From: a virus
Reading direction: 5' to 3' (one strand)
Virus record (IMG/VR): IMGVR_UViG_3300032245_001466
Location: 1-64,000 of that record
Length of the DNA: 64,000 bases
Below, piece by piece: positions 12,562 to 61,250 of this stretch. Within the stretch, counting starts at the first letter, position 1, and every line of letters starts with the position of its first letter. A program made the position numbers and the translations under genes. Below the pieces are notes generated by a model that was not told the origin of the DNA, ran no database searches, and saw only the letters and a program-made list of their open reading frames with translations.

Positions 12562-13797
12562 TTACGCGGTTACGCGAATCTTGGCCTGGAACTGAGGAGC
12601 CTTGTTCGCAAAGCCCTGCATCACATACATGATGTAGAGTCGCGTCAGGGCGCCGTTCACGCCAATCGGGATCTCGAGCGTCGTGATCGAGTCCGAACCA
12701 AGGTAAGGCATCGACCAGCCGGACTCATCTACCACGTACATATCGCGATAGTTCGTTCCTGAGATCGCATAGCCGCCGATGGCGTCTCCTGGGACCGCAA
12801 GAATTGGAAGCGAACCAGCCGCCGTGACGACCGAGCCAAAGGTTGCGCCAGCGAGCTGGTCAGCCTGTGCAGGGGCGTTGTAGCGAACAAGGTTCGTGAG
12901 CTCATTTACAAGACCAGCGTAGTCCGTTGGCGTGCAAACGATTGCCGATGGGTTTCCACCGTTGTCAAGAACGCCAGCGACGGCAGTGTTGATCGTCGAA
13001 AGGTACGAAGCCGTACCCTTGCCAACGATACCATTGCCGGCAGCGGCGGCCGTGCCAAGGAGCTTGCGGAGGCCGTCGAACGAGTTGGCATCATAGGCGC
13101 CAAGCTCGGTCGTTGCGCCCGCACCCGTGGTAACGGTTGCGTTGCCCTGGAAAAGGGTCTTCTGAAGCTTGTGCGCAATGGCGGTGACGCCGCTGCCAAG
13201 CTCCTGCGAAAGGCCATTGAACGGCGAGCCGCCCTGACCAAGCGCGAACTGATTCTTCAGCGTGATACCACGGCGGGTAGCAAGCACAGCGACGTTGGTC
13301 GTCTGGCGAGCGTAGGTCGCGGTGTCATCCGTCACGGTGCCGGTCTCCGTCTGGAAGACGGCGTCGCCGTAGGCGGTCTGCTGGTTGAACGCGTGCACGA
13401 GGCCGTTTGCGGGCTCCTTGCGAAGTCGCTCAAACAGTGGGAACTTCTTTACGAAAAGGCTGTAAAGAATAGGCTCGAGGTCCTGGCGGATGAGCGCCGT
13501 ACCGGCCGAGCTATCAAGGGCCTTAGCGATTGCTGGGTTCGACATAGCAAGCTGGTTAAGCACTGCCGAATCGGCCTGCTTGCCAACCTGGGCCGAAGCC
13601 TGAACATCGAGCATCTCATTGAGCTCGGTGGCCGACATCTTCGAGAACTTCTTGCGAAGTTCGCGCTGAACGGCATAGGCCTCTGCTGGGTCAAACGCAC
13701 TCTTCTTCTCGACGTCGATCTCGCGACCAACGTGGCCGTCGTTCAACGAGGCAAGGCCTCGCTCGACGTCCTGGAGCTTCTCACGAATCTCACTCAT
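12562..13797 (-). CDS. Major capsid protein, HK97 fold
   Basis: 411 aa. An N-terminal charged helical region (about 1-110, starting MSEIREKLQDVERGLASL) has the character of a scaffolding delta domain, followed by HK97-type capsid features: an N-arm/E-loop region about 150-200 (FQTETGTVTDDTATYARQ), the P domain and a C-terminal A domain (RLYIMYVMQGFANKAPQFQAKIRV). It is just downstream of the prohead protease, the usual order protease then capsid. The hairpin beyond its stop fits the high expression expected. Confidence 0.85.
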   Translation of the reverse strand: MSEIREKLQDVERGLASLNDGHVGREIDVEKKSAFDPAEAYAVQRELRKKFSKMSATELNEMLDVQASAQVGKQADSAVLNQLAMSNPAIAKALDSSAGTALIRQDLEPILYSLFVKKFPLFERLRKEPANGLVHAFNQQTAYGDAVFQTETGTVTDDTATYARQTTNVAVLATRRGITLKNQFALGQGGSPFNGLSQELGSGVTAIAHKLQKTLFQGNATVTTGAGATTELGAYDANSFDGLRKLLGTAAAAGNGIVGKGTASYLSTINTAVAGVLDNGGNPSAIVCTPTDYAGLVNELTNLVRYNAPAQADQLAGATFGSVVTAAGSLPILAVPGDAIGGYAISGTNYRDMYVVDESGWSMPYLGSDSITTLEIPIGVNGALTRLYIMYVMQGFANKAPQFQAKIRVTA

Positions 13798-13803
13798 AAT
13801 CTA

Positions 13804-15972
13804 TTAATCCTTCTGCGCCTCAAGGACGCGCTGTACATATGGGCTCAACCACGGAGCGGTCTCCGCGGCCTTTACCTGAATTCCTTGCGGAACGTCAACA
13901 GACTTTCGCCCAACCCCAAGAGCGCTGATGCGCTCAATGAGATCGAGAGCCTTCGACAGATCCTCTTCGACCTTGGCCTTTGACTCAGCAAGTTCGGTCA
14001 CCTTTGCCGCAAGGGCAGCGACCTCCTCGTGAGCAGCATTGGCTGCATCGAGAGCGGACTTTGCGATTGACTTGACCTCCTCAAGAGGGGCCACGTCAGC
14101 CTCGACAACCTCCGCTGCCGGGGCCTCCTCAACGGGGGCCTCAACAACAACTTCCGCCTCGGCCGCTTCCGGCTGTACGGATGATTCATCGCCGTCGACG
14201 GACTTCTCCTCTTCGACGAGCTTGGCGCCAAGCGCCTCAAGTGCAGCAACGGCTGGGTCCTTGGCAGGCTCTTCGGCCTCCTCTGGCTCCCCAACCGGAG
14301 CGTCTTCCTCGCCGTCTGGGGTGGCAGAGGCCTTAACCTCTTCCTTCTCCGACGGGGCGACCTCATCCTCTGAGACCGCAGGAGCCGCTACTGGCTGCTT
14401 GTCTTCATTGTCCGTGCTGACCGTAACGGTCACACGGGTCTTCTTCTCAAGTTCGCTGTCCATACTATTCTCCACGCTACTTTCTTCTTGCTCCGGAGCA
14501 TCGCCCGGCATTTCCGGCTTTTCGTTATCCATTGACTCATCTTCCTCGGGGGCAAGCGAAGCGCGAAGCTGCCATGACCACTTCTGGTGCATGTCTTGCC
14601 GCTCTGCCAAAAGATTGGCAATACCCTGCTGATTTGCATCAGTGGCGGCCTTAAAGGCGACCATGATGTGCTCCAGCAGCGCCTCATTTGCGGCGTAGAG
14701 AGCCTCTGCAAGGCTTTCTGCGTCGTAGTCATCGGCAAGAGCGCCATTGCTGGTCATTCTTGCCAAATCCTTGAGTTCAAATGGGGCAGAAGAATTAAGT
14801 TTTCTAAGGCTTTCTGCAATTGGGTCAAGCGACTCATGAACGTCTTCGTAAATTTCTCCAAATAGTTCATGATATTGAGCAAACTCTTCACCAACTACAT
14901 TCCAGTGGGCGCCATGCGCTTTTAGATAGAATGCCGTAGTTTCAGCAAGAAGGTTGTACAAAGCGCCAATTAGCGGCGACTTTTCCGCCGATGGCTGTCC
15001 CTCAATCTCAACAGCTTTCCAAGCATTGAGAATGTCTTCTACTGACTTTTTTGGCTTCTTGAGGCGAGATTGATATGAATCGATAATTGATCGCGCGCGA
15101 TCCAGAACTTCAGCCGGGGCATCTGTCTGGGGAAGTCTTGAGGCGGCGGCGCGAATGCCGGCATCAACGGCAACAAGCTTTCCATTTGAGACGTCCGCAA
15201 AAGGCAATTTATAAGATCCCTTTAGATTTGGATTGGCACTATCGTGAATGAGGAATCCCTTTGAAACCGCGGAAAGGTTGTCTCCGGCGAGGGCCCACAT
15301 GCGGCTTTCTGCCGCCGCTCCATCCCACGAATCGCGTCGAAGAATTGGAAGACTTGAAGATCCTCCGGCGACCCACTTTGAGGCAGCTTTATTGCTTTCG
15401 GCAAGTTCACCTTCAAGAAGATCAAGATCAACGCCGGCAGACTTAATGCTCTTAATGGCATTGTGAAGATATGAGCGCTGGTTGGCGGGAATGCCAACGA
15501 CGCTTGCCTCAAGGAGTCTGACCTTTTCAATCACAATTGACTCAGGCTGATCCCCCTGCGCAGCCTTTCGGCTGGCCTTCTCAACTCTGGCGCCAATAGA
15601 CAGTCCCAGCTTGACGCCGCGCTTGATTGCGCGATAAGCACGAAGGGCTTCTGGGTTTTCGTCTTCGTTTACGACACGGATATTGACGTCAAGGTCATAA
15701 ACTTCCTGATTGGTCTCCGAGTCCCATCGCTTTACAATCTCGGCATCAGTGGCCGAGCCAAAAAGGTCCTCTGGAACGTTGTAATTATGATTCAAGAATA
15801 CAGTCATATTCTGGCGAGCGGTGTCCGCCATTGACTTAAGCGCCCCGAGGGACATCTCATCACCGTGGAGGTCCCTGATTGATGAAGATGTGGTTCCGGC
15901 GACAAACTTCTCGCCGCTCTCGTTTTCGTATGCCTTCAAGGCATTTGTATAAATCTTGAAGTCCAAGTTCAT
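13804..15972 (-). CDS. Prohead protease fused to a Dps-like ferritin domain and an acidic scaffold-like tail
   Basis: 722 aa. Residues 1-180 are an S78/U35-type prohead protease: His62 in FLNHNY, Ser125 in KLGLSIGARV and Glu155 in LLEASVVGIPANQRS. Residues about 218-308 form a small domain seen in other phage head proteins (FLIHDSANPNLKGSYKLPF, then GIRAAASRLP). Residues about 330-475 match Dps/ferritin: LLAETTAFYLKAHGAHWNVV, with His356, His368, Asp383 and Glu387 in the same spacing (+12, +27, +31) as the E. coli Dps ferroxidase ligands His51, His63, Asp78 and Glu82. Residues 480-655 are acidic and low-complexity, and the end is a coiled coil that could act as scaffold. It lies directly upstream of the capsid gene (6 nt). 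Inference: the fusion brings a ferritin-like unit into the assembling head. Confidence 0.85.
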   Translation of the reverse strand: MNLDFKIYTNALKAYENESGEKFVAGTTSSSIRDLHGDEMSLGALKSMADTARQNMTVFLNHNYNVPEDLFGSATDAEIVKRWDSETNQEVYDLDVNIRVVNEDENPEALRAYRAIKRGVKLGLSIGARVEKASRKAAQGDQPESIVIEKVRLLEASVVGIPANQRSYLHNAIKSIKSAGVDLDLLEGELAESNKAASKWVAGGSSSLPILRRDSWDGAAAESRMWALAGDNLSAVSKGFLIHDSANPNLKGSYKLPFADVSNGKLVAVDAGIRAAASRLPQTDAPAEVLDRARSIIDSYQSRLKKPKKSVEDILNAWKAVEIEGQPSAEKSPLIGALYNLLAETTAFYLKAHGAHWNVVGEEFAQYHELFGEIYEDVHESLDPIAESLRKLNSSAPFELKDLARMTSNGALADDYDAESLAEALYAANEALLEHIMVAFKAATDANQQGIANLLAERQDMHQKWSWQLRASLAPEEDESMDNEKPEMPGDAPEQEESSVENSMDSELEKKTRVTVTVSTDNEDKQPVAAPAVSEDEVAPSEKEEVKASATPDGEEDAPVGEPEEAEEPAKDPAVAALEALGAKLVEEEKSVDGDESSVQPEAAEAEVVVEAPVEEAPAAEVVEADVAPLEEVKSIAKSALDAANAAHEEVAALAAKVTELAESKAKVEEDLSKALDLIERISALGVGRKSVDVPQGIQVKAAETAPWLSPYVQRVLEAQKD

Positions 15973-16666: not shown

Positions 16667-16903
16667 TTGGAATTTAGCGAAAGTGTTGAGATTCATTTTG
16701 AGGACGGAAGATACGTCGTGCCAAAATGGTGGGCTCGATTGCCTTCTTTTCGTGGCATTGGGATGGTCGATGGGATTAGAATGGTACCGTTCAAGTATAC
16801 AGAGGCCAGAGCAATTGTAAACAAAGACTTGGATCAAACTGCGATAACTAGCGCAATCAGGTCCTGGAGAACGAGAAAGCCGAAGGAGCAAAATCCGTGG
16901 TAA
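16667..16903 (+). CDS. Small protein between Cys-rich gene and portal
   Basis: About 78 aa from TTG 16667, which is preceded by a GACGAGG ribosome site; an upstream in-frame ATG at 16610 lies inside the previous gene. It starts with EFSESVEIHFEDGRYVVP and is basic at the C-terminus. It overlaps the portal start by 7 nt, so translation is likely coupled. Function unknown. Confidence 0.6.
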   Translation: MEFSESVEIHFEDGRYVVPKWWARLPSFRGIGMVDGIRMVPFKYTEARAIVNKDLDQTAITSAIRSWRTRKPKEQNPW

Positions 16904-19068
16904 TGATGCCGTGGGAGCGACTAAAGCGCTCCGAAACTACGTCAGAAGCGCAGGCAACCGTTGATGCGATTAAGGACGCAATCCTTATCCCCAACTACGA
17001 CTCGCAGCCATATGCCCGAGGCGCTGGGCAAAGTACCGTGCAGAAGCGATCGGTCAACATGCTTCGCAAGTGGTCGCGCAACAATCCATGGATTCGTGCT
17101 GCCATCAACCTGCGCCGGCAGCAGATTAGCCGCGCCCGCTGGGACATTGTGACCATTGATGGCGAAAGTCAGGCAAACGTAGAAATCGTTCACAAGATTA
17201 AACATCTTTTGCGAGACCCAAACACTCGGATGGATTCATGGAGATCATTTATTGAGCCCATTGTTGAAGACATCTTGGTTCTTGACCAAGGCGCAATTGA
17301 AAAGGAATTGACCGTTGGCGCAAGGGCTGGTCGCGCAGTGGACCCAATTAAGAATCTTTGGCCAAAAGATGCTTCAAGAATAGCATTTGATCCAAATTGG
17401 GATGGAAGCAATCTCAAAAAGCCTAGATATTTTGAATACGATGATACGGGCAAGGTAATTGCAGAATACAAGAACGAAGAAATGGTGGTCATTGTTGCCA
17501 ACAAAGTTACCTATTCCCCACTTGGGCTTTCTCCCCTAGAGGTTCTTGCTGAAACTATTGAGGCAGACCTGCGCGCTGCAAAGTACAACAACAACATTGT
17601 GGAACAGGCAACGCCACCAGGCATCATTGATCTTGGCGAGGGCGTGCGTCCAGATCAGGTTGATGCATTTAAGACTTATTGGGAGGGCGAGATTGCAGGG
17701 AAGAGCCAGACCGCAATCACCGGCGGCGGCAAAGGGGTCAAGTGGATTCCAATGGCCCAGTCCAACAGGGACATGCAGTTTATGGAATGGCAGATCTATC
17801 TTGCCCGAAAGATCTGTGCAGTATTTGGCGTTCAGCCACAAGACATTGGTTTGAACTTTGACGTCAACAAGAGCACGTCTGAGTATGGGGCGGCATTCAC
17901 TGCCGACAACGGTATCGCACCGCTATGCGAGCTAATCGCGGATTATATTACCCGCGAGATCGTCTGGTTGTATGACAGAAACCTTAGATTTGTTTACACC
18001 GACGTCGGCAGGGAATCCGCAGCGGCCGTTTCCGACTACTATAAGGCGGCACTTGCTGGACTCCCTTGGCTTCGACTAAACGATGCACTCAAGGAGCGCG
18101 GGCAGGACGCTGTCGGCGATCTTGGAAATGAGATCTGGATGCCAAGCCCGCTTGGCTATATGCCGCTTAGATTTTACGAGCTTTATTTGAAGGGAAAAGT
18201 TGGCGATCCCGATATGCCGCCACCGCCGACGGTTCCTGACGCCCCGGAGGGAGCAGTCGATACGTCTCCCGGTGCTGGCGGCACCAAGCCAAGCCCCAAG
18301 CCGCCACAGGGCAAGGATCAGCTTGAGTCAAAGCCAAATCCAGATATGAACCCAAGGCAGCAAGAGAACAAGAAGCAGATTGTGGTTATCGAGCCAGATA
18401 GCATTCTTTCTGATGAATGCCCGTCTGAGGTAATTGACGCAATTGATGATTACGTTGCGCAGGGCGCGGAAATCATTGCAATTTCTCGATCAAAGGCAGA
18501 CAAGGAAGAGATTCGCGCTGAACTTGAGGAGTGCGGAATTAATGTTGTTGATGTTCTCTGCAACACATTCCCAGACGATACTGTCTTGCAATTCAAGCGA
18601 TATGAGTCGCAAAAGATTAGCAGGCTTGGTGCAGAGGTTATCGCCTACTACGACGGCGACCAACAAATTGCCGATGCCTATAAATCTTCGCATCCGCTTG
18701 CTAAGGATCTTGCAGTGTTTGATGCCGAGAAGGCGGATGGGATCAATCTAAATGTTCCCGATGGCGTAAAGGCAGAGGCAAAGAAGGGCCTTGATTGGCG
18801 TCGGGAGTTTGGCAGGGGCGGCATTGGCCCTGGTCAGCAGACCGCAAGAATGCTGATCGGCAACAAGATGACCATTGCACGAGTAAGAAAGATGCGCTCG
18901 TACCTTGCTCGGCACGAAGTCGACAAGCGCGGTGAAGGCTGGGCTCCTGGCCAGAAGGGATTCCCTTCAGCCGGAAGAATCGCGTGGGCTCTCTGGGGTG
19001 GAGATTCGGGCAAGGCGTGGTCAAACAAGGTCATGCGTTCGGTTGAAGCCAAAGAGAGAAACGGCTAG
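16897..19068 (+). CDS. Portal protein with C-terminal HAD-like and WALWGG domains
   Basis: 723 aa from GTG, with AGGAG 8 nt upstream (ATG 16903 is the alternative). Residues 1-435 are an HK97-family portal: KWSRNNPWIRAAINLRR, the clip/wing region, and MEWQIYLARKICAVFGVQP with the stem helices. After a Pro-rich linker, residues 494-598 look like a HAD-type Rossmann domain (VVIEPDSI for motif I, IISRSK-like motif II, a Lys, then YYDGDQQIADAY for motif IV); motif I lacks the usual DxD, so catalysis is doubtful. Residues 620-713 (GLDWRREFGRGG to IAWALWGGDSGKAW) are a domain common in phage head proteins. The portal is the DNA channel and packaging-motor dock. Confidence 0.85.
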   Translation: MVMMPWERLKRSETTSEAQATVDAIKDAILIPNYDSQPYARGAGQSTVQKRSVNMLRKWSRNNPWIRAAINLRRQQISRARWDIVTIDGESQANVEIVHKIKHLLRDPNTRMDSWRSFIEPIVEDILVLDQGAIEKELTVGARAGRAVDPIKNLWPKDASRIAFDPNWDGSNLKKPRYFEYDDTGKVIAEYKNEEMVVIVANKVTYSPLGLSPLEVLAETIEADLRAAKYNNNIVEQATPPGIIDLGEGVRPDQVDAFKTYWEGEIAGKSQTAITGGGKGVKWIPMAQSNRDMQFMEWQIYLARKICAVFGVQPQDIGLNFDVNKSTSEYGAAFTADNGIAPLCELIADYITREIVWLYDRNLRFVYTDVGRESAAAVSDYYKAALAGLPWLRLNDALKERGQDAVGDLGNEIWMPSPLGYMPLRFYELYLKGKVGDPDMPPPPTVPDAPEGAVDTSPGAGGTKPSPKPPQGKDQLESKPNPDMNPRQQENKKQIVVIEPDSILSDECPSEVIDAIDDYVAQGAEIIAISRSKADKEEIRAELEECGINVVDVLCNTFPDDTVLQFKRYESQKISRLGAEVIAYYDGDQQIADAYKSSHPLAKDLAVFDAEKADGINLNVPDGVKAEAKKGLDWRREFGRGGIGPGQQTARMLIGNKMTIARVRKMRSYLARHEVDKRGEGWAPGQKGFPSAGRIAWALWGGDSGKAWSNKVMRSVEAKERNG

Positions 19069-26562: not shown

Positions 26563-26972
26563 TTAGCGAAGTAGAGTGCAATTGCGCGTGTGTTGGTTGC
26601 TCTGAGGGCAACTGCTGCGACCATAAGGCGTGGGTGCAGGGTTTTTCTGATTACCAGCGCGGTGCAGCGGTGACCGCTCGCGGAGAGGTGTACCTCACCC
26701 CAGAGTACGGCCGTATCGCCATCGCAGCCATGGGGCTCGCAGGAGAATCTGGCGAGTTGATTGACCACCTCAAAAAGGTCATCGGTCACGGTCACGCCGT
26801 AGACAAGGACTATCTGACCAAGGAGCTTGGTGATATACTCTGGTACGTGGCGGAGATTGCCACCGTGTCTGGGATAGACCTTGGCGATGTCGCAGTTGCC
26901 AACGAGAAGAAACTACGACTTCGCTACCCGCAGGGGTTCTCTGTGGACCGAAGCGTTAACAGGAGAGACTAA
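26559..26972 (+). CDS. MazG-like nucleotide pyrophosphohydrolase
   Basis: 137 aa. MGLAGESGELIDHLKKVIGH and LTKELGDILWYVAEIA carry the acidic metal-binding motifs ExxE and ExxD of MazG-type all-alpha NTP pyrophosphatases. A Cys-rich N-terminal extension (CNCACVGCSEGNCCDHKAW) is unusual. Phage MazG proteins are linked to nucleotide pools and alarmone control. Confidence 0.85.
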   Translation: MISEVECNCACVGCSEGNCCDHKAWVQGFSDYQRGAAVTARGEVYLTPEYGRIAIAAMGLAGESGELIDHLKKVIGHGHAVDKDYLTKELGDILWYVAEIATVSGIDLGDVAVANEKKLRLRYPQGFSVDRSVNRRD

Positions 26973-27682
26973 TGCCTGAACTGAACGCCAATATTCCGTC
27001 AATTGAGTGCTACGTTCGTGGCAACTATTTGCGCGATCAGGAAGACAGCCACGACAAATACTTCCCAGTTGTCGTCTTCGGCGTCGCTTCTATTGCCGGA
27101 AGAAGCCCACTCTTTCACTTTATGATGGAAGACGGTGGGATCTGGTGGAGGGCCCCGCTTAGTGCCTTCTGCGCAAAGCCAGGCGTTCCAGAAGTGGACA
27201 TCCACGATCTTGTGCTGTGGAATTCATTTTCACACAACATCAGCGTGACAAAGTTTTACGCGCTGGATGGCATGCGCGTCTCGTACATTGATCGCCACAA
27301 GAACAACATTGGCGGAAAGTATCTGTTCACGCTGGACTGGAGCGCGCCGGACTACAACACGCTGGATGTCGGGTATAGCCAGAACCCAGGGCAGCACAAG
27401 TGCGGTCACATGATCCTGCGCGACGATGGTAACTTTGCCATTCAGCCAAACAACCGCATTCATCTTTATGACCCATCGTTCTCTACGAAGCCGAACGAAA
27501 ACCTGATTCAGCGTAAGGTCAATACCCGCAAGTGGGATGTCGAGGATGCGGCAAAGTGGATCACGTCCGACGACGATCTCTACAACTACGGCGTGGTAAG
27601 CAACCCGCTTAATTTTACGGCGCAAGACCTTGAGCCGTTCTTCCTGACCAAGAAAGGACCGAACGATGCCGAAGCCAAATAA
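26972..27682 (+). CDS. Hypothetical protein
   Basis: 236 aa, beta-rich in the middle (YFPVVVFGVASIAGRSPLF, FHFMMEDGGIWWRAPLSAF). No known family recognised. The start overlaps the mazG stop; the end overlaps the glycosyltransferase by 17 nt, so it belongs to the same operon and may act with it. Confidence 0.6.
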   Translation: MPELNANIPSIECYVRGNYLRDQEDSHDKYFPVVVFGVASIAGRSPLFHFMMEDGGIWWRAPLSAFCAKPGVPEVDIHDLVLWNSFSHNISVTKFYALDGMRVSYIDRHKNNIGGKYLFTLDWSAPDYNTLDVGYSQNPGQHKCGHMILRDDGNFAIQPNNRIHLYDPSFSTKPNENLIQRKVNTRKWDVEDAAKWITSDDDLYNYGVVSNPLNFTAQDLEPFFLTKKGPNDAEAK

Positions 27683-59415: not shown

Positions 59416-59793
59416 GTGAATCAGAGCAAGAAGACTAGGAAGCAGTTGGTGCTAGAGGTCTTAGAGAAAAACCTCAATGTATGGATTGACGGGAGCGTGC
59501 TGATGCAGCCAGACTGCGGCGGTGGCCGCTTTGGCGCAAGAATTGAGGAGTTGCGCAAAGATGGCCACACGGTAGAGGCCCGTCCGCACCCAGATCCAAA
59601 GCGCGACATCTGGCAATACAGAATTTGCGATAAGGCATCTCCAGCTGGGTTTTGGGAGTGTTCTAGGTGCGGGACGAGATCGCAAGACAAGCCGGGGGGC
59701 AACTTGCGGGCAAGCGTTGTTGAGACGATGATTATGGCTGCTTGCTGGAAATGCAAAAAGCAGTCGGTTATTTGGCAGTTTCGGAAGATCTAG
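59416..59793 (+). CDS. Zinc-ribbon protein with winged-helix-like N-terminus
   Basis: 125 aa from GTG 59416 (AGGAGG). KTRKQLVLEVLEKNLNVWID and GARIEELRKDGHTVEARPHP resemble a winged helix as in small phage HTH proteins; CSRCGTRSQDKPG and CWKCKKQSV form a ribbon. It could be a regulator. It converges with terL by 4 bp. Confidence 0.65.
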   Translation: MNQSKKTRKQLVLEVLEKNLNVWIDGSVLMQPDCGGGRFGARIEELRKDGHTVEARPHPDPKRDIWQYRICDKASPAGFWECSRCGTRSQDKPGGNLRASVVETMIMAACWKCKKQSVIWQFRKI

Positions 59794-61250
59794 CGTTTAG
59801 CGGAAGTAAAGTAGAAGCCCACAGTCCCAACGTCAGCAGCATAGACAAGAGCGTCAACAAGGTCGTCATGCTCGCTGTTTGGGAATGACATCATTTCTGA
59901 CTCAAGCTGCCTGATCCCAGGGCCATTTTTAAGGTGAAATACCTTGCCGGCCTCGTACCTGGCGGCAAGCGATCTAGAGCGGAAAACCTTGTCTCTTTCA
60001 GGGCGTACTGCCCGAGCCGGAAGTCTGGTTTCATTGACAAGTTCCCGGACAAAAGTGGATTGGTACTGAACGGCCTCAATGTTTACCTCGGTAAACTTCC
60101 TTGGCTCATCCCCCCAGGTGTCCCTTTGGCCTCGCAGGCCAACAAACTTTGCTGGCCAAAGCAGTTTTGGACTTGACGCATCGTCAATGATTGACCCATC
60201 TCGCTCTACTCCAGTTAGCCACTTTTGATGCCCTTGCTGAATTCTGGTCCGATAGGCGCCAACCACGTATAGGTTGTGATCGTCGTCTTCCACCACCTCA
60301 ACGGCAGCTGTGTAGTCCGAACGCTCTTTCTCGGAGGCTGCAAGGTCAACTCCAATTCTTCTTGCCCCTGGTGGAATTTGATCAACATACTGAAAGAACT
60401 CATAGCGGAAGATATTGCCACCCATGGAGGTAACGTCGTTTTGATATTGAAGGTTAAAGATTGGCGTTCCAAGCTCTTCCCGTTTTCGTTCAAGGTCTTC
60501 AACCGTGTACATGTCTGGCCATAGCGGGCCGGAATCCTCAATTGATCTCCGGAGATACGTAGGAATGCCCTTGCTGGTCAATTCGGCATAGAAATCGTCT
60601 TCATGCCAACGCGTGCCGATATACCACCTTGTTGCACCGGGAACAAGCATTGGATCGATGACCTGCCAATACGTTTCACTTGCTTTCTGACGCTGGGTGG
60701 GGGTGGCATTTTCCTTAAGCCCAACAATGTCGTCTGCGATCAGCAAGTCAAGGCGCGGGCCCGGCTTAATAGAGGTTAGTCCGTCAGCAAAGCAAGTGGC
60801 ATCTTTACCAAGGTTTACGCCCTTGATGGTCCAAACCTCGTCGGTCCATTTTCCGCCCGCAACGCCACCCCTTGCCCACGGGAACACTTCTGCAAATTTT
60901 GCAGATTCGACAATGGTCTTGATAGCCCTAGATCGCGCAAGGGCGTCAGAAAGAACAGATGTAACAATACCAATACGAATTTTGCCTTCCGTCACGCCAA
61001 CAAGGCGAGCGGCGCGATGAATTAATTGCGTGGTTTTTGCGTGACCGCGCGGCATAAGCACTAAGGCCCTTGGGTTGCCGGTGAGAAAATTCTCCATCTC
61101 TCGAAGATGGCGAGGAAAGACTAGCCCGCTGACATATTCAGCAAACGCCGCGTCATCAGAAGCGGCACGGTCCCGAAGCCATGAGCGATACTGCTCGTTA
61201 GTCGGCGGCGGCGGTATCTTCGATTTGCTTTGCTTCTTCGTGCTCTGCAA
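59790..61250 (-). CDS. terL: Terminase large subunit
   Basis: 486 aa. Walker A MPRGHAKTT (about 66-74), Walker B LDLLIADDIVG (about 169), then a nuclease domain with IGVDLAASEKERSDYTAAVE and MMSFPNSEHDDLVDALVYA at the end (metal-binding acids). It drives DNA packaging into heads. It overlaps the small subunit by 53 nt and lies 41 kb away from the portal gene on the opposite strand. Confidence 0.93.
   Translation of the reverse strand: MQSTKKQSKSKIPPPPTNEQYRSWLRDRAASDDAAFAEYVSGLVFPRHLREMENFLTGNPRALVLMPRGHAKTTQLIHRAARLVGVTEGKIRIGIVTSVLSDALARSRAIKTIVESAKFAEVFPWARGGVAGGKWTDEVWTIKGVNLGKDATCFADGLTSIKPGPRLDLLIADDIVGLKENATPTQRQKASETYWQVIDPMLVPGATRWYIGTRWHEDDFYAELTSKGIPTYLRRSIEDSGPLWPDMYTVEDLERKREELGTPIFNLQYQNDVTSMGGNIFRYEFFQYVDQIPPGARRIGVDLAASEKERSDYTAAVEVVEDDDHNLYVVGAYRTRIQQGHQKWLTGVERDGSIIDDASSPKLLWPAKFVGLRGQRDTWGDEPRKFTEVNIEAVQYQSTFVRELVNETRLPARAVRPERDKVFRSRSLAARYEAGKVFHLKNGPGIRQLESEMMSFPNSEHDDLVDALVYAADVGTVGFYFTSAKR

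Follow-up and report, generated by a model that had tools for sequence, protein, structure and literature searches.

In HK97 the fragments of the prohead protease leave the head, and the C protease of lambda has a nested scaffold, Nu3. Encapsulins carry ferritin-like cargo, which has a targeting peptide, in a shell of the HK97 fold that holds no genome. Dps proteins, which belong to the ferritin-like group and in bacteria bind iron and protect DNA, usually form 12-mers. Ferritin and Dps genes are already known from phages: the solo Dps of the Proteus phage Privateer was detected by mass spectrometry in CsCl-purified virions (PMC7881722), that of the E. coli phage SU10 was detected in the phage proteome (PMC4281155), and published interpretations of phage-borne Dps and ferritin genes invoke host ROS defence (PMC6802176; PMC8008677). 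Domains fused to MuF head proteins are likewise a known theme (PMC5512222), treated there with no mention of Dps or ferritin. A fusion of a Dps or ferritin domain with a prohead or capsid maturation protease is undescribed in the literature searched, which left subscription journals and preprints mostly outside, and appears to be new; as the original prediction from this DNA had said, Dps has no established role in capsids. The locus described below brings a known fold and a known protease together in a combination that is new, recurrent and modular, and that is carried mostly by uncultured phages.

The window analysed here is a stretch of 64,000 nucleotides from an 82.9-kb virus contig, whose record holds a single Ferritin match. 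That match lies inside a polyprotein combining a prohead protease, cargo modules and a scaffold (Table 1), for which 73 viral relatives were collected from IMG/VR.

Table 1. Coordinates of the polyprotein, its parts and its neighbours in the window, with two solo Dps loci from other contigs.
Feature	Coordinates	Strand	Basis
Prohead protease/cargo/scaffold polyprotein, 722 aa	13804..15972	-	ORF and translation; 73 viral relatives
Prohead protease domain, S78/HK97 type, residues 1-190	15403..15972	-	PF04586, TIGR01543, invariant columns
Exchangeable cassette (mod2 and Dps)	14545..15406	-	Absent in L015, Tudor-replaced in L016; blastn and alignment
Accessory module "mod2", residues 195-320	15013..15390	-	Present in further phage protease fusions
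Dps (ferritin-like) domain, residues 330-475	14548..14985	-	Pfam, PHROG, PDB, AlphaFold2, Foldseek
His356 (E. coli Dps His51)	14905..14907	-	Invariant, 70/70 phage and 36/36 cellular sequences
His368 (E. coli Dps His63)	14869..14871	-	Invariant, 70/70 phage and 36/36 cellular sequences
Gly372 instead of a fifth ligand (E. coli Dps Asp67)	14857..14859	-	Alignment
Asp383 (E. coli Dps Asp78)	14824..14826	-	Invariant, 70/70 phage and 36/36 cellular sequences
Glu387 (E. coli Dps Glu82)	14812..14814	-	Invariant, 70/70 phage and 36/36 cellular sequences
Acidic disordered linker, residues 477-628, net charge -39	14089..14544	-	Charge count, AlphaFold2
Internal ribosome-binding site GGAG (14470-14473) and ATG (14461-14463, Met504)	14461..14473	-	Family conservation
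Scaffold coiled coil, residues 630-684	13921..14085	-	AlphaFold2 full length, pLDDT about 70-85
Major capsid protein	12562..13797	-	phrog_752, E=3.5e-10
Portal protein, divergently transcribed	16897..19068	+	PHROG match
Solo Dps genes directly behind portal (gaps of 3 nt and 28 nt, respectively)	L268 1528-4457; L213 1-1719		

Sequence profile searches with the central part of the polyprotein recovered significant matches to the Pfam Ferritin model PF00210 (residues 337-473; 42.2 bits, E=9.6e-11, above the curated cut-off of 24.5) and to the PHROG Dps family phrog_3636 (residues 332-473; E=5.8e-25), and phmmer gave the Dps structure 8ff9 as the best PDB match (residues 330-474; E=1.4e-16). The AlphaFold2 model of the domain, based on an alignment of 40 phage domains (pLDDT 94.3, pTM 0.88), has the four-helix layout of Dps, with four long helices and a short helix in the B-C loop (9-34, 40-67, 76-82, 94-121 and 125-148); the best 50 Foldseek matches are all Dps-family structures, including HP-NAP, CAIP and TpF1, with TM about 0.85. 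The agreement of Pfam, PHROG, PDB, fold and the 40-sequence alignment rules out a chance resemblance, and the recurrence of the same fusion in dozens of separate contigs rules out an assembly or frameshift artefact. A Dps-like domain at about residues 330-475, lying between the protease and an acidic scaffold-like tail by the capsid gene, is what had originally been predicted, and both its identity and its placement are borne out. The closest solved structures, the Dps proteins of P. aeruginosa (PA0962, 8ff9) and V. cholerae (3iq1), share with it the fold, the B-C loop helix, four ferroxidase ligands and about 33% identity. It differs from them in being embedded in a viral polyprotein, in the replacement of the fifth ligand, in its acidic character (net charge -14), and in its tree position, which among the sequences sampled is within a clade specific to phages. 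Both of its ends are fused and it has no free Lys-rich ends; the Lys/Arg-rich ends or basic tail by which certain members of the Dps family bind DNA were not seen in the domain. Some Dps proteins protect DNA without binding to it (title of PDB 1o9r).

His356, His368, Asp383 and Glu387 show exactly the spacing of the Dps ferroxidase ligands (+12/+27/+31), and the four are invariant across the 106 sequences sampled, phage and cellular together. The domain had been predicted to possess intact ferroxidase ligands, a description that holds for these four residues and overstates the set as a whole, because the fifth ligand of Dps (Asp67 in E. coli, Asp47 in L. innocua) is a glycine here and is unconserved in the phage clade, Asp or Glu occupying this position in 19/70 phage versus 33/36 cellular sequences. 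With this second-metal ligand lost, the ferroxidase activity of the phage Dps domain may be weak or absent.

The N-terminal domain of the polyprotein matches PF04586 (Peptidase_S78) at residues 97-174 with 28.4 bits and E=2.2e-6, passing the cut-off of 21, and in an alignment of 23 members of the polyprotein family His62, Ser125 and Glu155 are invariant; by their motifs we take these to be the catalytic residues. It is akin to the HK97-type (S78) prohead proteases in sequence family and in its position before the capsid gene, whose start (13797) lies 6 bases past the protease stop codon (13804). It departs from them in the added cargo modules and scaffold, and its match to TIGR01543 (E=2.5e-10) scores 40.7 bits, short of the curated NCBIfam cut-off of 59 for the HK97 proheadase equivalog. 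The full-length AlphaFold model has a mean pLDDT of 51 and is too weak to be read except at the Dps domain and the coiled coil. No Pfam model matches mod2, which follows Dps in some relatives; cultured Streptomyces phages have the same module fused to head protease and MuF proteins, and elsewhere it stands next to Dps. The capsid and protease genes are oriented against the portal gene, and the C-terminal 100 or so residues of the portal protein form an accessory domain (phrog_2859 region) of a kind that is also found, as LPD, at the N-terminus of Dps-protease fusions of other phages.

Among the IMG/VR relatives the protease and scaffold are common and the segment between them is variable. The relative L015 is colinear with the window, at 86-87% identity on both flanks, and cleanly lacks positions 14545-15406, presenting an empty site. 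Another, L016, has a Tudor domain (Hva1_TUDOR) together with a linker similar to that found elsewhere before Dps, but lacks Dps itself, a state that looks like a clean loss of the domain. Within this one protease family Tudor, Dps and mod2 are shuffled in nine arrangements, and no other Ferritin match was found in the records checked for the Dps-less relatives, which may be fragments. Dps is accordingly an optional cassette between protease and scaffold. The median dN/dS is 0.079 for Dps, near that of the protease (0.042) and far lower than that of the scaffold (0.31), and the Dps domain is under purifying selection. In one member of the family (L012, 6001-8573) the coding sequence for the end of the scaffold is divided between two overlapping frames of 819 aa and 45 aa, owing either to a phage frameshift or to a sequencing error.

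The scaffold itself is predicted to be made also as a separate protein of 219 aa starting at Met504. At the scaffold start, TRVTVTV, a GGAG-type site stands 4-10 bases before 22 of 23 family start codons, compared with 37 of the 721 remaining in-frame start codons in these genes (5%), a large contrast between counts whose family members are not independent; relatives without an ATG at this point have a GTG with AAGGAG instead. Because this internal start is conserved, a separate scaffold is to be expected, with Dps only on the protease-length product. The arrangement is reminiscent of lambda C/Nu3 in joining a protease to a scaffold and in the conserved in-frame start, with its ribosome-binding site, ahead of the scaffold; it differs in that the protease is of a different family and cargo modules lie between protease and scaffold.

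Dps domains of the same clade are also joined to other prohead proteases, either before or after the protease. The architectures include Dps-S78, LPD-Dps-mod2-Tudor-S78, S78-Dps (L209), protease-DUF6321-Dps (L065), protease-Dps (L058) and giant LPD-protease-Dps proteins (L043, L239). In L275, a phage contig within an actinobacterial genome bin, the sequence gives the gene order terminase, portal, Dps-protease and capsid. A scan seeded with the Dps alignment, and hence biased towards sequences near the Dps of the window, yielded 77 distinct best-scoring Dps proteins, 38 with head-protease family sequence and 27 solo. Some of the solo genes, as in L268 and L213, follow a portal gene at a distance of 3-28 nt, in a slot that often holds a protease or MuF gene. 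Several others are found in or near replication regions, outside head operons.

In the tree, the phage Dps sampled cluster together and separately from the 36 cellular sequences, with 89% support (98% for a cluster of 69 of the 70), and the class to which the Dps of the window belongs is one clade with 97% support, with L209, in which the protease comes first, nested among the Dps-protease proteins. With few columns and many open forks, the tree does not fix the number of fusion events. That the phage Dps was recently captured from one of the hosts sampled is unsupported, given the separate grouping of phage and cellular Dps. Pattern searches recovered a relative in only 4 of 84,980 cellular genomes, of which at least two were phage contigs and another was a bacterial Dps of the ordinary kind. 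No fusion was found in cultured phages with the window, S78, DUF6321, L220, L239 and L224-type queries; DSL-LC01 and the Microbacterium phage A3Wally have an L239-type protease without Dps. UniProt contains fusions from uncultured phages under automatic names such as "Prohead protease" or "DNA-binding protein Dps"; A0A6J5RFH1 has 87% identity, and A0A6J7XDU5, A0A6J7WPK9 and A0A6J7WIS1 bear the former name.

The fusion suggests that these phages place an iron or oxidative-stress protein in their own virions, and we consider it rather probable that Dps is virion cargo, loaded via the protease-scaffold fusion and binding iron inside the head. Under such a mechanism the polyprotein would be a prohead protease and scaffold with an optional cargo cassette, here mod2 and Dps, between them. 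The scaffold end would carry full-length molecules into the prohead, and thereby place Dps inside the head; most of the scaffold would come from the internal start codon as a protein of its own, Dps arriving only with the less abundant protease form. The protease would then cut itself and the scaffold, freeing Dps, which would remain folded in the head, perhaps as an oligomer, where it would bind iron and lower Fe/H2O2 damage to the packaged genome, or enter the cell with it. The likeliest benefit seems to be that the genome is shielded from iron and peroxide, with entry alongside the DNA being possible. This mechanism accords with the recurrence of fusions to head proteases, the dispensability of Dps and the retention of the metal ligands. 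The cargo could however be lost to autodigestion, given that in HK97 the fragments of the protease exit the head. No motif shared with the N-terminus of the capsid protein was found at potential cleavage sites around Dps.

A function in iron or oxidative-stress chemistry inside the virion is plausible. The Dps proteins of Privateer and SU10 resemble the present one in being Dps of phages, and their detection by mass spectrometry in particle preparations is an experimental precedent that supports Dps as a virion protein, although their presence there might be carry-over; no proteomics was found for phages that bear the fusion. They are set apart as separate genes, unjoined to head proteins, and by their distant sequences (about 28% identity across a part of the domain). 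Encapsulins offer the parallel of a ferritin-like protein inside an HK97-fold shell, as proposed here, and differ in holding no genome and in using a targeting peptide in place of a protease-scaffold fusion. A more specific and decidedly tentative version of the cargo reading is an iron-binding Dps cage in a DNA-filled head, delivered by fusion, freed by proteolysis and trapped as an oligomer that guards the genome from iron and peroxide or carries iron to the next cell. If this were true, head proteases would be general loading docks for exchangeable virion cargo.

The existence of solo Dps genes away from head genes, several of them in or near replication regions, means that Dps may act in the infected cell, and the host ROS defence reading of phage Dps and ferritin cited above points the same way. 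The fused Dps might on this basis work late in infection, in oxidative-stress or iron protection or in DNA condensation, the fusion serving only to couple it to late expression. We regard this as unlikely, since a neighbouring gene would suffice for coupled expression, yet the fusion is repeated in several protease families, and since the attached scaffold should send the fused protein into proheads. The original prediction had also raised the idea of a 12-mer assembly core. In a fuller form of this idea a Dps dodecamer would nucleate the protease-scaffold molecules and help to set head size, with iron chemistry secondary. Although 12-mers are usual for Dps, the fold and core residues are retained and Dps adjoins the scaffold, this idea is disfavoured and in our view improbable, because near-identical proteases and scaffolds exist without Dps (none in L015, the linker only in L016) and Dps is N- or C-terminal of the protease depending on the phage; moreover, an assembly core alone needs no four metal ligands, yet these are kept throughout the phage sequences sampled.

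The shuffling of the same small domains with Dps at head proteases and portals, together with the known theme of MuF-fused domains (PMC5512222), brings to mind a mobile pool of head-associated domains (Tudor, mod2, LPD, DUF6321, Dps) that, in the manner of MuF effector domains, contact the genome in the head or, on entry, the host, iron binding being incidental or for sensing. MuF fusions and polyvalent proteins do resemble the present fusions in that head proteins carry effector domains which are exchanged between phages. Their carrier is different, being here a protease-scaffold without a MuF domain; no MuF, toxin or known effector domain was matched in the polyprotein by Pfam or NCBIfam, and the partner domains are without known activity, so that we hold this to be the least probable of the explanations, and a very unlikely one.

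Were Dps indeed virion cargo, the maturation protease would provide a natural route by which a chosen protein is loaded into the phage head, across several lineages. Iron and oxidative-stress chemistry would then take place inside the virion, and protection against iron and ROS by phage particles would be directly testable. The cassette site is also a possible place for engineered cargo in laboratory phages.

Elsewhere in the window, about 41 kb separate the large terminase gene (59790-61250, minus strand) from the portal gene, which lies on the opposite strand, and a gene at 26972-27682 on the plus strand matches a phage ferredoxin family (phrog_3704, E=1.8e-55), representing a second iron protein in this genome.
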